The notes under the pieces: model-generated | Database searches by the model: none | What the model saw: only the letters and a program-made list of their open reading frames with translations | Told to the model about the DNA's origin: nothing | Assembly (NCBI RefSeq): GCF_003952365.1 | Contig: NZ_CP034443.1 | Span: forward strand, 799,001 to 863,000 | Source of the DNA: Mesorhizobium sp. M9A.F.Ca.ET.002.03.1.2 | GTDB lineage: Bacteria; Pseudomonadota; Alphaproteobacteria; Rhizobiales; Rhizobiaceae | DNA length: 64,000 nt | Reading direction: 5' to 3' | Part shown: positions 1-7,671 of the stretch, in pieces | Position numbering within the stretch: the stretch's first letter is position 1 | How the letters are laid out: each line of letters starts with the position of its first letter | Made by a program: the position numbers and the translations under genes

Positions 1-102
1 ACCGGCCCCGACGAAGTACAGGACGATTTGCAGGATGCCCAGCAACAGCCCCGCCAGCAACGGGTAGAGATAGAGCGCAGGTGCGTTGAGGAGGTCTGCC
101 AT
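1..102 (-). CDS. Membrane protein, cut by the window edge
   Basis: Reading the minus strand from an ATG at 102 gives 34 residues, MADLLNAPAL followed by a hydrophobic run, and then leaves the window. The start lies only 5 bases after the stop of the TnpB-N/PspA-like gene, so the two are almost certainly co-transcribed. PspA-family genes often sit beside genes for small membrane or NfeD/YqiJ-like proteins, and this could be one. Too little is visible to assign a family. Confidence 0.55.
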   Translation of the reverse strand, partial: MADLLNAPALYLYPLLAGLLLGILQIVLYFVGAG

Positions 103-107
103 CGGCG

Positions 108-1226
108 TTACTTCTCGCCCTTGAGTTCACTGCGAAGCGCGGCCAGCCGGTCGTCAATCCGCCGCTGGCGGCCAAATTCTTCGAGCTCGGCCAGATCATT
201 GTCGCGCGCCGTGCCGGCGGGCAGGTCGGTCAGCCGCGCCACGCTGGACAGGGCCGCCGCTATGCGATCTTCCGGCGCCGGCTTGCGAAAGCGACCCGTG
301 GCGGCGGTCGCGCCGGGCGCCTGCGCCTCGCGGGCGCGCCGCGCGATCTTCACCCGCTCCTCAGCGTCGCGACGCGCTGCGCTCGCTGCATTCAAGGCCC
401 CACGCGCTTCATCGATGCGTACATCCACGTCGTAGATCAACTTGTCGATGGAGGTAACCTGCGCGTCGATGTCGTCCTGTCGGCCGATGCCGGCGCGGGC
501 GAGATCCTCGCGGCCGTCTTGCAGCGCGATGCGAATGTTCTGATCCAGGCCCTCGCGCTCGGCGGTGAGGTCGCCCTTTTGCAGCGTGTAGCGCTTGCGC
601 TCGGCGATCAGCGCGGCAAGGTTGGACTTCAACTCGTCGGCGGCCTTGTCGATCTCGCGGATCGCCTGCTCGGCCACCGCCTCGGGAGCCTTCTTCTCCA
701 GACCGTCGATCACGGTCGTGACCAGGCCAGCGGCAAGGCGCGAAACGCGCCCAGAAATGGATTCGGTCTGCATCGCTTCGATCTCCCTATGTTGCATGTC
801 CGCCGAAAGCGGAACGGTGAGTGAATAGTATCCGCTCTCGCGCACGAGATGGGACAGTTGCGCCTTCTCTTGGCTGTCGGAATAGCCGGTGGCCAGAAAG
901 CCGGCGATCACCCGCCCCTCGACGGTGGAAATCGACACCTTGTCGACCCCTTTGAAGGACATGAGCTTATCGTCGAGTGGCAGACGGTCGAACGACCAGG
1001 CGCCGGAGGCGTATTCACGGATGCCGTTGGTGACGAGCCGCGCCGGCAGGCCAGTCTCCGCCCGGATCGCCTCATAGGCGAGTTTCTGCAGTTCGAAAGT
1101 ATTGGTGCGGTGGGCCGAGCCAGTGCGATCCAGAACGTCGTGCATGGCGGCATAGGCGGCGAATGTCGCCTCGACGTCGCGCTCGCCGGCTTGGTCCAGG
1201 ATCAGCTTGTAACGCGCTTTCTTCAT
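108..1226 (-). CDS. PspA/IM30-like coiled-coil protein with a TnpB-like N-terminal domain
   Basis: The 372-aa product has two parts. Residues 1-146 follow the order of the N-terminal domain of TnpB/IS605 OrfB proteins: ARYKLIL opening, an ELQKLAYEAIRAETGLPARL helix (residues 45-64), the DDKLMSFKGVDKVSISTVEGR segment (about 85-105) and a GYYSLTVPL strand (132-140), which in TnpB comes just before RuvC-I. No RuvC motifs follow. Residues 150-310 instead resemble PspA/IM30: an amphipathic start, long Ala/Glu/Arg/Lys-rich heptads and LQDGREDLARAGI, close to the 'RKGKEDLARAAL' turn of PspA. The C-terminus (310-372) is basic and probably disordered. The strong site GGAGGAA precedes the ATG. PspA proteins protect membranes under stress; what the TnpB-derived part does is unknown, with RNA or protein binding being possible. 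Domain identities are by eye. Confidence 0.85.
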   Translation of the reverse strand: MKKARYKLILDQAGERDVEATFAAYAAMHDVLDRTGSAHRTNTFELQKLAYEAIRAETGLPARLVTNGIREYASGAWSFDRLPLDDKLMSFKGVDKVSISTVEGRVIAGFLATGYSDSQEKAQLSHLVRESGYYSLTVPLSADMQHREIEAMQTESISGRVSRLAAGLVTTVIDGLEKKAPEAVAEQAIREIDKAADELKSNLAALIAERKRYTLQKGDLTAEREGLDQNIRIALQDGREDLARAGIGRQDDIDAQVTSIDKLIYDVDVRIDEARGALNAASAARRDAEERVKIARRAREAQAPGATAATGRFRKPAPEDRIAAALSSVARLTDLPAGTARDNDLAELEEFGRQRRIDDRLAALRSELKGEK

Positions 1227-1242
1227 TTTGTTCCTCCTACCT

Positions 1243-1261
1243 AATCACTTAAATAGTGATT
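1243..1261. promoter_or_regulatory. Palindromic operator candidate, proximal copy
   Basis: AATCACTTAAATAGTGATT has perfect 7-base arms around a 5-base centre. It sits 17 bases upstream of the ATG of the PspA-like gene and is matched by a second copy 37 bases further upstream. The regulator is unknown. Confidence 0.6.
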
Positions 1262-1279
1262 GCAGAGAATTCAAGGGTA

Positions 1280-1298
1280 AATCACCAAAATGGTGATT
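1280..1298. promoter_or_regulatory. Palindromic operator candidate, distal copy
   Basis: AATCACCAAAATGGTGATT again has perfect 7-base arms and shares AATCAC-N7-GTGATT with the proximal copy. The 37-base offset is about 3.5 helical turns. Two copies in one short promoter suggest cooperative binding by a dimeric regulator. Confidence 0.6.
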
Positions 1299-1764: not shown

Positions 1765-2823
<1,059 letters not shown>

Positions 2824-2864
2824 TGGATTTCTCCGGGAGAAAGGGTTCCAGCTAGACTGCGGCT

Positions 2865-3686
2865 TCAGCCGCCCTTGACCGCGCCGGCGGTCAATCCCGC
2901 GACGATCTGCTTTTGCGCGAACATGGTCAGGACCAGCACCGGCAGCGTCACCACCAGCGCCGCGGCAGCGAGCGGCCCCCAGCTCACCTGCTCGTAGGAG
3001 AGCATGTTGTAGACGGCGACCGGCAGCGTGCGCGTCTCGCGGCTGGCGAGCACCACGCCGAAGACGAAATTGTTCCACGAAAAGATAACGGACAGGATGA
3101 AGGCGACAACGATGCCCGGCCTGGCGATGGGCAGGGCGACCAGCCGGAACACCTGCCAGGAGCTGGCGCCGTCGATGTTGGCCGCCTCTTCCAGCTCCAT
3201 CGGCGTGGTCTCGAAATAGCCGATCATCACCCAGACCACGATCGGCACCGTCACCACCAGATGGATGATGATCTGCGGCCAGAGCGTGCCGAGAATCCCG
3301 ATCCATTGGAACAGCAAAAACAGCGGGATGAGATAGGATAGCCCCGGCGTCATGCGGGCGATCATGATGACGACCGCCGACCTTTCGGCCTTGAGCCGGG
3401 CTATGCCGTAGCCGGCCGGCACGCCGATCAGCAGCGCCAGCAACGTCGCCGTGCCGGTCACCAGAACCGAATTCCAGAGATAGAGCAGGAAATTGTTCTC
3501 TTCGAACACCTTTACATAGTTCGACCAGGCGAAACGTTCGGGGATCAGGATCGGCGGATAGGCGCCGTTGTCGATCTCGAATTTCAGCGAAAGCGAGATC
3601 ATCCAGAGGAAGAACAGGATCGCCGGCGAGACGATGACCAGAGCCGCGAAAAACAGGCCGATCTGGTTGAGCAGACGTGACCGCAT
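2865..3686 (-). CDS. Sugar ABC transporter permease (MalG type)
   Basis: A 273-aa inner-membrane protein with about six hydrophobic helices. The cytoplasmic EAA loop is clear ([20 protein letters not shown], about residues 164-183), the site that contacts the ATPase. Size and the position of the loop fit the MalG/UgpE side of the CUT1 family. Its ATG at 3686 directly follows the TAG stop of the partner permease, so translation is likely coupled. Confidence 0.92.
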
Positions 3687-4658
3687 CTATTTGCCCTCCG
3701 CGTCGATCCACAGCGAGCGCTGGCGCAGCATCAGGAGGATGAAGGACAGCGCCACGATAACGATGAAGAACACCACCGCCATGGCCGAGCCGTAGCCGAT
3801 GTCGTAGTAGGAGAAGGCGGTGTTGTAGAGATAGATGTTGATGGTTTCCGACGCCGTGCCCGGCCCGCCTTGGGTCATCGCATAGATGATGTCGAAGCTC
3901 TTCAGCGCATCGATGGTGCGGATGATCAACGCGATCATCAGGAACGGCGCGATCATCGGCAGAGTAAGGTAGCGGAATTGCTGCCAGGCATTGGCCCCGT
4001 CGATCTCCGCGCTCTCGAACGGCTCGCGCGGTACCGAGGCCAGCCCGCCCAGCACGATCAGCATCACCAGCGGCGTCCACTGCCAGGTCTCGACCGCAAC
4101 CAGCGAAGGGATGACCGTTTTGGCGTTGAATATCCATTCCTGCGCCGGGATGCCGACCAGCGACAAGAGGTAGTTGAGCACGCCGAGCTGGGGATGGAAC
4201 ATCATGGTCCAGACCAGCGCCACGGCCACGGGCGTTGCCATCATCGGCATCACGAAGACGCCGCGCAGCACGCCGCGCAGCGGAAACCTGGCGTCGAAGA
4301 TCAGGGCGGCGACAGTGCCGAAGAGCATCGGCGCTGCCACCGACAGGGAGGTGTAGGTCAATGTATGAACAAGGGATTCCCAGAATCGCGGGTCGCTGGC
4401 CAAACGGAGATAGTTTTCCATCCCGGCGAAGCTTCGCGACTGGCCGAGCGTCCAACGGTTGACACTCATCCAGAGCGTGAACGCCCAGGGAAAGATGATC
4501 ACGGCGCCGACGACGACGAGCGCCGGAACGACGAAGGGCCAGTAGTTGGGAGCCAGCCGGACCGACTGACTCTCCTCGATGGCCTGCGTCGTCGCCCCGG
4601 TGCGATCCGTCGTCACCTCGGTGCGATCCGCGGTGCGTTCTGGGGCGATGGCCGACAT
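3687..4658 (-). CDS. Sugar ABC transporter permease (MalF type)
   Basis: A 323-aa membrane protein with a polar N-terminal tail of about 35 residues and then about six membrane helices. The EAA loop reads [20 protein letters not shown]. It pairs with the MalG-type permease to form the channel. Its start overlaps the stop of the binding-protein gene by ATGA at 4658. The N-terminal tail is rich in Thr and Arg with a short repeat ([15 protein letters not shown]), which could be a low-complexity extension. Confidence 0.92.
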
Positions 4659-5995
4659 CAGCCCTGCTCGCTCCTGTCGAGAACCGGCTGGAACTGCGCG
4701 GTCGCCTTCTTCAGCTCGTCGGCGGGATCGGCGCCGGCAATCATGTTGGTCAACGCCACGCCGTAGACGTCACGGAACTCGGTGACCGGGATGATCACCG
4801 GCAGCGCCAGCCTGCTGATATTGCCGGACTGAACCACGGCATCGAGCCAGCTTGCCGGCATGGTGACGCCTTCGCGCACCTTGGGATCTTCCAGCACCGA
4901 CTTGCGGAAGGGTACGCCGGCGCCGGCCTGAAGCAGGCGCGCGCCCATGGCCGGGGACACCGCCCACTGACAGAAGAGATAGGCAGCTTCCTTCTTTTCG
5001 CTGGAGGCGGTCACACCGAGGCCGTCGCCGAACGTCCCGGAGGCATGCGCCTTGGGCCCCTTGGGCATGACGCCGTAGCCGACCTTGCCGACCACGCGCG
5101 ACTTCTCGGGATTTTCCATCGGCGGAGCAAAACCGACGCCATCGAACCACATTCCGATCTTGCCTTGCAGGAAGGCGGACTGCGCTTCGGCCCAGTTGAA
5201 GCCAGTGACGCCCGGAGGAGCGGACTTGGTCATCAGCCTCTGATAGAGAGCGGCGGCCTCGATCGCCTCGGGCGTTTCGGTGCGCAGCTTCCCCTGGTCG
5301 TCGAGCGGCGTCATGTCGTAGCCGAGCATCAGCGATGTCCACACCGGCGTGTTGGCATTCTTGAGGCCGCGGGCGACAAAACCGAACGTGTTGGTCGACG
5401 GATCGGTCAGCGCCTCAGCGGCGGCCACCAATTGCTCGAACGTTTCAGGGTATTTGAGGCCCTTGGCCTCGAACAGCTCCTTGTTCCAATAGACGATCCA
5501 GTAGTCCACCGAGAAAGGCAGCGAACGCAGCACGCCCTGGCCGTCCTTGGCGAAAAGCATGCCGGCCTCGGCGAAATCGCTTTCGACCAGCCCGGGATCG
5601 GTGAGCGTCGGGTCGGCGAGATAGCCTGATATGTCGGCCAGCCAGCCGCCCTTTTCGAACTGGCGCTTCTGCACGTGGTAGCTCAGATGCACGACATCGA
5701 AGCTCGGCTTGCCGGAGCTGAGCTCGATCACCGTCTTTTGCCGCTGCTGCTGTTCCGGCGTCGCTTCGGCACTGACCTTGATGCCGGTCAGCTCCTCGAA
5801 CTCGGCGAGATATTGCATGATGGTGTCGCTGCGCGGGCTTTTCACCAGATTGACGTCGAGAGTCGTGCCGGCAAAGCGCTTCCAGTCGACGCCGGCGGAA
5901 AAGCTCGGGCGAAGGCCCGCCAGGCCTGCGGCGGCGATCGCCGTGGTTCCTGCAAGGACTTGCCTTCTTGTTGGCTTGAACGGATTGGACGACAT
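4658..5995 (-). CDS. Sugar ABC transporter substrate-binding protein, Tat-type signal
   Basis: A 445-aa periplasmic binding protein of the MalE/UgpB group (family 1 extracellular solute-binding). The N-terminus [20 protein letters not shown] carries a twin-arginine motif before a hydrophobic segment ending near FSAG, so export by Tat is likely. The ATG at 5995 is preceded by GGGAGGAA at good spacing; an upstream in-frame start at 6052 has no such site. It is the first transporter gene after the GntR regulator. The sugar is unknown, but the linked DHDPS-family enzyme suggests a sugar acid or a deoxy-keto acid precursor. Confidence 0.9.
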
Positions 5996-6058
5996 TTCTT
6001 CCTCCCTTTGGTTGCTGTCGTTGTGCTTTGCATCGCGGCGGCCGCGAACCATACGTCC

Positions 6059-6718
6059 TCAGATCTGGAGCGCCAACCGGCGCGCATTGTCGATATGCCG
6101 GCTGATCGCCTCGACCGCCTTTTGCGGGTCGCGGCTCTCAAGCGCTTCGATCACTGTCAGGTGCTCGTGCATCACCGGCACGACGCGCCCGTCGATGCGG
6201 AAACGCTCCTGGTGGATCAGGCGGATCTTTACCGAATTGACCAGATAGGCCTTGGCGATGATCTCGTTGCCCAGCGCATCGATGAAGGTGTCGTGCATAG
6301 CCCAGTCGATGTTCTGGGCCTTGGCCTCCATTTCCGGCGTCGGCGCCTGCGACAACGCCTGAGCCAGCATGTCCTCATGTTCGCGCCGCAGGCGGGCGAG
6401 CTCGGAGTCGGAAGCGTTGACGGTGAACAGCGCCACCGCTTCGCGCTCCATGAACAATCGAAACTGGAAGGCCTCACGGATCAGGTTGATGTCGATATGG
6501 GCGATCTGCATGCCGCGCTGCGGGATGGTCGTCAAAAGCCCCTCGGCCTCGAGGCGCGGCACGATCTCGCGGATGGCGCCAAGCGGCAGCCCGGTAAAGG
6601 CGACCAGTTCGCGCTGCGACACGAACTGTCCCGGCCGCAGATCGCGGGCCAGCAGATGCCGCGTGAAGCTGGCATAAGCTTTTTCCCTGAGGGTGGCCGG
6701 TTCGCTGCTGTCGTCCAT
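6059..6718 (-). CDS. GntR-family transcriptional regulator, FCD/FadR subgroup
   Basis: A 219-aa DNA-binding protein. The winged helix-turn-helix lies at about residues 12-72 (REKAYASFTRHLLARDLRPG, then GAIREIVPRLEAEGLL), followed by an all-helical FCD ligand domain with the usual metal/acid-binding histidines (WAMHDTFIDALGN, VMHEHLTVIEAL, HIDNARR). It lies between the DHDPS-family gene and the transporter genes in the same direction, so it probably controls its own operon; the palindrome at 7672-7683 is a candidate site. The effector is probably a sugar acid or pathway intermediate. Confidence 0.88.
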   Translation of the reverse strand: MDDSSEPATLREKAYASFTRHLLARDLRPGQFVSQRELVAFTGLPLGAIREIVPRLEAEGLLTTIPQRGMQIAHIDINLIREAFQFRLFMEREAVALFTVNASDSELARLRREHEDMLAQALSQAPTPEMEAKAQNIDWAMHDTFIDALGNEIIAKAYLVNSVKIRLIHQERFRIDGRVVPVMHEHLTVIEALESRDPQKAVEAISRHIDNARRLALQI

Positions 6719-6742
6719 TTCAGCGCGCTTCTTCCTTGCCGG

Positions 6743-7633
6743 TCAGGCCGGCTCTGTCGCAAACAGCCGATCATAGGCGGCAGCAAGCTGTTGCCGCCCC
6801 TGCGAAGCGATCGGCTCCAGCGGCGGACGGACCGCCAGCCAGCCCTCGTCGCCGGTCTTGCGCGCCACCATGACCTTCACCGCCGGGATGACCGGATATT
6901 TGAGCAATTCGAGCACGAAGCTCTCGACGCGGGCATCGTCGCGCCCGTCCTCGGCCATGGCGCGGATTTCGCCGGTGACGAAATTGGCCATGCCGGAAAT
7001 GGCGCCCTGCCCGCCCTGGCGCACGCTTCTGGCCAGGTGCCGCTCGTCGCCGATCAGGATCACCAGGTCGCCATGAGCGCTTAGCAGCGCCTCGCTGTAG
7101 CTCCAGTCGCCCCCCGAATCCTTGACACCAGCGACCACGCCGGGGAAGGCCGCACGCAGCCTGCCGATCAGGGCAAGCGGGAGCGGCACCATGGTGACGG
7201 AAGGGATGTTATAAAGGAGGACGCCGCGAGCCAGTGGGCCGAGCCCGGCGAAGACGGCGGAAAACCATCCGAACAGCCCGTCCTCGCCGACATTCTTGAA
7301 GTAGCTCGGTGGAGCCAGCAGGATGTTGCGGACGCCGCACTGCAAGGCGTGTCGCGCCTGTTCGGCGGCGTCTTCGGCCGCATCGACCAGCACGCCGGCG
7401 ACGAGCTGATGTGCCGGAATGCCGGCGGCCAGCATGGCCTCGGTGACGATCCGCCGCTCTCGGGTGCCCACGGAGGCGCCTTCCCCGGTGGTGCCGAAGA
7501 GCGTTGCGCTGCTGCAGCCGGCGCCAAGGCAAGCCTGGGCGTGCGCAACCATGGGAGAGATGGCGATTTGCCCGGACGCATCAAAAGGCGTGGTGAGGGC
7601 AACCGAAAGACCAAAGCGCGAAGCCACTGCCAT
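6743..7633 (-). CDS. DHDPS/NAL-family lyase or dehydratase
   Basis: A 296-aa TIM-barrel enzyme of the dihydrodipicolinate synthase/N-acetylneuraminate lyase superfamily. The GTTGEGAS substrate loop (about residues 47-54), the tyrosine in LLYNIPS and the Schiff-base lysine in GVKDSGGD are all present. Since it heads a sugar-uptake operon, it is more likely to cleave or dehydrate a keto-deoxy sugar acid than to make lysine. ATG at 7633 is preferred over the TTG at 7642, which would place the GGAGAG site inside the gene. Confidence 0.87.
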   Translation of the reverse strand: MAVASRFGLSVALTTPFDASGQIAISPMVAHAQACLGAGCSSATLFGTTGEGASVGTRERRIVTEAMLAAGIPAHQLVAGVLVDAAEDAAEQARHALQCGVRNILLAPPSYFKNVGEDGLFGWFSAVFAGLGPLARGVLLYNIPSVTMVPLPLALIGRLRAAFPGVVAGVKDSGGDWSYSEALLSAHGDLVILIGDERHLARSVRQGGQGAISGMANFVTGEIRAMAEDGRDDARVESFVLELLKYPVIPAVKVMVARKTGDEGWLAVRPPLEPIASQGRQQLAAAYDRLFATEPA

Positions 7634-7671
7634 GCTCTCCAAAATATCAATCTGCGCGCAGTACTATCACG

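Follow-up and report, generated by a model that had tools for sequence, protein, structure and literature searches.

Organization of the locus

The window, a stretch of 64,000 nucleotides from Mesorhizobium sp. M9A.F.Ca.ET.002.03.1.2 (contig NZ_CP034443.1), begins within an operon whose first gene encodes an exapted TnpB guide lobe (WED-REC, without RuvC and without zinc finger) joined to a PspA/IM30 coiled coil. The fusion gene is followed, after a gap of 5 bp, by yqiJ (NfeD-like; PF21001, PF07290) and then by a flotillin gene (PF15975, PF01145), the latter two lying mostly or wholly beyond the window. The features of the locus are the following:

108..1226, minus strand: fusion gene, TnpB WED-REC lobe plus PspA/IM30 coiled coil; ATG start, 372 aa
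789..1226, minus strand: TnpB-type WED-REC lobe, residues 1-146 (hhalign, predicted structure)
1005..1043, minus strand: third REC helix, residues 62-74, with residues 63 and 66, which vary most with the operator sequence (two evolutionary changes only)
321..749, minus strand: PspA_IM30 match, residues 160-302 (PF04012)
1231..1238, minus strand: ribosome-binding site AGGAGGAA, read from the sequence
1..102, minus strand: start of yqiJ (NfeD-like membrane protein), 5 bp past the fusion gene
1243..1261, no strand: proximal palindrome AATCAC-N7-GTGATT (read from the sequence, pattern search)
1270..1275, minus strand: -35-like CTTGAA between both palindromes, assigned by eye
1280..1298, no strand: distal palindrome AATCAC-N7-GTGATT, 37 bp from the proximal one (read from the sequence, pattern search)

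The match to PF04012 at residues 160-302 has an E-value of 1.4e-9, better than the curated cut-off, and bears out the PspA coiled coil that the original prediction had placed behind the lobe. The family is present in 36 of 36 fusion representatives (Pfam scan, E<=10). The rest of the window's genome displays no second PF04012 match and no PF07282 match. In the predicted structure, the lobe consists of a strand (2-9), three helices (12-35, 43-58 and 62-74) and six strands across residues 81-139, and the chain past the final strand (133-139) is helical. PF01385 and PF07282 (RuvC, TNB zinc finger) give no match in the fusion protein, whose chain runs on into PspA; the catalytic half of TnpB is therefore missing, as had been proposed. 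When the predicted full-length model was compared to the PDB, the match list was taken up by coiled coils.

On the other side of the operator pair, about 480 bp without any obvious gene (1282-1764) precede an ABC-transporter operon. Judged by eye from the translated open reading frames, positions 1765-7642 encode the ATPase, two permeases and binding protein of a carbohydrate ABC transporter, together with a regulator resembling GntR and a product resembling dihydrodipicolinate synthase, an apparently ordinary arrangement.

Origin of the N-terminal lobe

Single-sequence scans for TnpB families find none in the fusion protein (Pfam at E<=10, NCBIfam at E<=1), and the lobe is therefore overlooked by routine annotation. 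Residues 1-149 were compared to 72,556 plasmid records using tblastn (E<=10), which returned matches in 26 of them. Eleven are the same fusions, ten being annotated as PspA/IM30 and one as a hypothetical protein. Ten of the 15 non-fusion records are annotated as TnpB or transposase, the best being a Rhodovastum TnpB (E 2e-5). The remaining ones comprise an unannotated Geobacillus stretch, in which the lobe was matched again in a second comparison, a stand-alone lobe from Thermobacillus (E 2e-7) and three other or chance matches.

Profile methods, for which the TnpB set was drawn mostly from one clade around the Rhodovastum protein, gave concordant results: a TnpB-only HMM recovers every one of the 36 fusion representatives, with E-values of 3.5e-14 to 5.9e-4, the reverse HMM built from the fusions recovers 116 of 116 targets (114 TnpBs and two stand-alone lobes), and hhalign of the lobe to TnpB yields 99.2% and an E-value of 1.6e-19 over 145 columns, versus 0.15% in a control with the PspA half. 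On 3,917 decoy ORFs, minus the 81 fusion genes among them, the best E-value of the TnpB-only HMM is 0.8. The structural matches of the predicted lobe model are dominated by TnpB/Cas12 kin (49 of 50 entries), which was the comparison suggested in the original prediction. The TnpB N-terminal domain proposed for residues 1-146 is thus upheld by tblastn, two-way HMMs, hhalign and structure alike, and the resemblance is far beyond chance. A chance or convergent likeness would agree with the failure of single-sequence family scans to see TnpB, but it is ruled out by the hhalign result, by the two-way profile homology over the whole domain and by the structural matches, and its probability is negligible.

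Other origins were considered as well. A search of 50,697 phage records with residues 1-149 yielded only two matches, both with an E-value of 6 and both to a single coat protein, and a phage origin was rejected on that basis. A better-fitting family other than TnpB for residues 1-146 was discarded after the Pfam scan of 36 members (E<=10), which gave PF04012 throughout; 84 families were matched in all, and the 25 of 84 listed are by name largely coiled-coil families, with positions given for the first member only.

Sixteen residues are common to at least 90% of 99 fusions and at least 80% of 112 TnpBs of the same, mostly one-clade set: L8, T21, L32, L46, A50, Y51, R55, L60, D85, K92, G93, T101, G104, R105, Y115 and L127. 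The TnpB segment YKRDKxIQP is absent from 99 of 99 fusions, and the lobe carries a mean net charge of -1.6 in the 99 fusions versus +3.2 in the 112 TnpBs. The scaffold appears to have been kept and the nucleic-acid surface to have been rebuilt.

Distribution and conservation of the operon

A protein search returned 156 homologues (the best 120 of 156 being listed); when residues 1-160 of a Rhizobium member served as the query, 516 were returned (the best 120 of 516 being listed). The full fusion was found in 24 of 397 genomes of the order, in one of the nine genomes of the window's genus within that order sample, and in six of 385 genomes of the class. Its distribution is widespread yet patchy. 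For the analysis of gene order, 80 loci were retained of 186 found in named genomes, and yqiJ and flotillin lie downstream of the fusion in all 80; a constant membrane neighbour, for which a check had been proposed, was thereby confirmed. In the eight loci listed, the ORFs common to half or more of the 80 loci all fall inside the three-gene stretch, which leaves no further regulator gene as a conserved neighbour of the operon. Pattern searching of the 80 upstream regions, some of which have start codons placed too far upstream, gave no match to a sigma54 site, and control of the sigma54/PspF type was rejected on these grounds.

A palindrome in the presumed promoter

The two 19-bp palindromes upstream of the window's fusion gene are the sole exact matches in 6.4 Mb. 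Such a pair, with a spacing of 35-38 bp, is kept in six of six Mesorhizobium-type loci despite differing flanking DNA. The other fused loci display a single palindrome of the same geometry with different letters: the half-site reads AAAGCAC in most Rhizobium and Bradyrhizobium and AAGTGAC in Microvirga, further forms being AAAGGAC, AAAGGAT/GTCCTTT, AATGAC and AAAGTAT/GTACTTT. The letters therefore vary by clade at constant geometry. A strict test detects the promoter palindrome in 80 of 81 fused loci versus 10 of 1807 random stretches, and the single miss (L094) carries a degenerate copy. With a laxer score, which favours a core of AC-GT preceded by TTG, a palindrome was picked in 113 of 113 loci, a set that, like the 46 fused loci mentioned below, contains some genomes twice (G037, G410, G334, G144, G080) and may contain other repeats. 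The weakest real score is reached by 35 of 870 random stretches and the tenth percentile by none. Since a TTGA/TTGT box stands in front of the palindrome in 100 of the 113 loci (3 or 4 bp away in 94, 12 bp in 6), the palindrome fills the spacer of the presumed promoter, whose boxes were assigned by pattern.

With up to one mismatch, the AAAGCAC form occurs once only, at the operon promoter, in five of the six fused genomes searched; in the sixth (G144) this form is absent and the AAAGGAC form is present. A reversed-pattern control produced 0 to 2 matches per genome. Uniqueness of the site is weak evidence, because chance matches to so long a palindrome are few anyway, and says only that no large regulon shares it.

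Normalised mutual information with base 5 of the half-site is highest for residue 63 of the third REC helix (0.66), followed by residue 66 of the same helix (0.41), the next residue reaching 0.28. In 35 representatives, R63 goes with C in 27 and Q63 with G in seven and with T in one; in the 113 loci, R63 is found with C in 97 and with T in one, and Q63 with G in 13 and with T in two. On a tree computed with nine alignment columns around the helix left out, at an assumed offset, there are two changes at residue 63, three at base 5 and one independent pair on well-supported branches. As the tree allows only so few changes, the covariation is suggestive and no statistical proof, and it is confounded with ancestry. 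Position 63 is Gln in 99% of 112 TnpBs and Gln or Asn in 13 more diverse ones. According to the accessible parts of PMC10097598, a REC glutamine of ISDra2 TnpB, Q80, contacts the TAM, and position 63 of the fusion may be its equivalent.

Unfused operons and their upstream gene

Unfused PspA-YqiJ-flotillin operons share the three downstream partners and the gene order of the fused ones but carry a separate small upstream gene instead of the fused TnpB lobe. This gene encodes 172-210 aa and ends at most about 30 bp from pspA or overlaps it (for example L117:4226-4786). The N-terminus of its product reads SVRV..EDA.F(L/I)A ... TPS(E/D)K(I/L)RA(I/L)(I/L) and, by eye, looks like a ribbon-helix-helix (RHH) protein; sequence searches gave no Pfam or PDB match. 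An HMM built from seven upstream proteins, which are themselves among the genes counted, detected the gene in 25 of 26 such unfused loci (these loci representing 17 genomes, 16 of them positive) and in nine of ten genomes outside its building set, versus none of 46 fused loci and none of 16 PspA genes outside such operons. The RHH-like gene and the fused lobe are thus mutually exclusive across unfused and fused operons, which is most simply explained by the fused lobe having taken over from a separate upstream regulator. Apart from one unrelated site in L122, the unfused loci examined contain no AC-N7-GT palindrome of this form.

Proposed mechanism

The association of the fusion with a palindrome in its presumed promoter suggests that the borrowed TnpB half now controls the fusion protein's own genes, and the regulatory module envisaged in the original prediction is the role favoured by the evidence. 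On balance, the lobe is probably the DNA-binding regulator of its own operon, binding the promoter palindrome, blocking transcription and being released when the PspA half goes to the membrane. The lobe, as a dimer or larger oligomer, would bind the palindrome probably without a guide RNA and with residues 62-74 of the REC helix, and once bound would block transcription of the operon, acting by repression rather than activation. Attraction of the PspA half to damaged membrane or to YqiJ/flotillin microdomains would cause the lobe to leave the operator, and the operon would be induced. There is an even chance that the lobe has been freed from guide RNA and nuclease altogether and serves as a transcription-factor domain, its REC helix recognizing the palindromic operator in a sequence-specific manner. 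As the lobe is fused directly to an ESCRT-III-like sensor of membrane damage, one chain would then, with the same even odds, combine the functions of sensor, effector and repressor.

Judged from the sequence, the negative mean charge and the lost basic TnpB segment would be unusual in a DNA binder and speak against a regulator. They would fit a lobe that serves as a protein-interaction platform, for instance for YqiJ or flotillin, the palindrome being read by a repressor encoded elsewhere. The constancy of the operon partners, and a covariation that rests on two events only, point the same way. Such a separate repressor is conceivable but rather unlikely, as the loci listed show no further conserved gene next to the operon, the genomes tested hold no further sites of the same form, and the lobe stands in place of the RHH-like gene. 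That the lobe still binds RNA, be it a guide or some other transcript, and directs PspA by means of it is improbable. Ancestry would favour it, the guide RNA of TnpB being bound by RuvC together with WED in the available portion of PMC10097598, and many core residues are retained. RuvC is however absent, the charge of the lobe has dropped, YKRDKxIQP is lost, and a palindrome flanked by -35- and -10-like boxes speaks for DNA. An Rfam scan of the operon gave no sign of a guide-RNA element, returning only a tRNA and sub-threshold matches; omegaRNAs are poorly covered by Rfam. The original interpretation is therefore retained for the architecture, the membrane neighbour and the regulatory role, and its RNA-binding membrane protector is not supported, a lobe that binds DNA being the likelier reading.

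TnpB is the ancestor of CRISPR-Cas12, and one half of it thus persists without RuvC as a stress-protein domain conserved across many rhizobia. Should the lobe read DNA without RNA, it would bear on the origin of TAM/PAM reading and constitute a new class of DNA-binding domain.

Relation to known systems

In E. coli, PspA inhibits a separate sigma54 activator, PspF, and thereby couples membrane stress to the expression of its own operon. The fusion would resemble this system in that PspA itself provides the coupling; it differs in that the fusion loci show no sigma54 site by pattern search and that the proposed DNA reader is located within the PspA chain. A DNA reader welded to a membrane sensor would be a route to PspA control without PspF. 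TldR proteins retain the rest of TnpB, including an inactive RuvC, and require a guide RNA. They share with the fusion a descent from TnpB, the lack of DNA cutting and transcriptional regulation, the last being proposed for the fusion; the excerpts available of PMC13418256 introduce them as TnpB-derived RNA-guided transcription factors. Unlike TldR, the fusion has PspA in place of the second TnpB half, without any RuvC-type family match, and its proposed target is a single palindrome at its own promoter.

Searches of the open-access literature revealed no paper that connects TnpB to PspA/IM30. The single one containing both words concerns pneumococcal vesicles, and its PspA is presumably a different protein. 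Surveys of PspA systems describe band-7/flotillin and YqiJ or NfeD partners, membrane partners of the same kind as those of the fusion, but no TnpB-type domain in the available sections of PMC11237479 and PMC9239133; in PMC11237479, 'transposase' and 'rhizobi' each have 0 occurrences. In the accessible part of a Rhizobium tropici transcriptome study (PMC5936775), a 'PspA' gene is up-regulated, with values of 4.87 in the list for acid adaptation and 4.42 following acid shock, as is an adjoining locus tag (4.46). A search of the plasmid collection for this 'PspA' gene was negative; the fusion is carried by two other R. tropici strains (L078, L081), which suggests that the acid-induced 'PspA' is the fusion as well. 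Induction of both neighbours, as far as that part of the study reports it, fits the proposed mechanism.

Stand-alone and truncated lobes

A 'hypothetical protein' of Allomeiothermus silvanus pMESIL01 (L106:2486-3013) is a TnpB lobe stopping just past the RuvC-I motif and looks like a truncated TnpB. Stand-alone WED-REC lobes without RuvC are encoded by Thermobacillus composti pTHECO01 (176 aa, L016:3998-4528) and by a Paenibacillus rhizovicinus plasmid (180 aa, L105:3989-4531). The two are 53% identical and are both located on large plasmids, and they possibly form a second RuvC-less TnpB-lobe family. These lobes of Paenibacillaceae plasmids may represent a second escape from guide RNA and nuclease. 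The Paenibacillus gene lies directly behind a replication-relaxation gene, near a SAF-domain gene and a T2SS/T4P ATPase gene.
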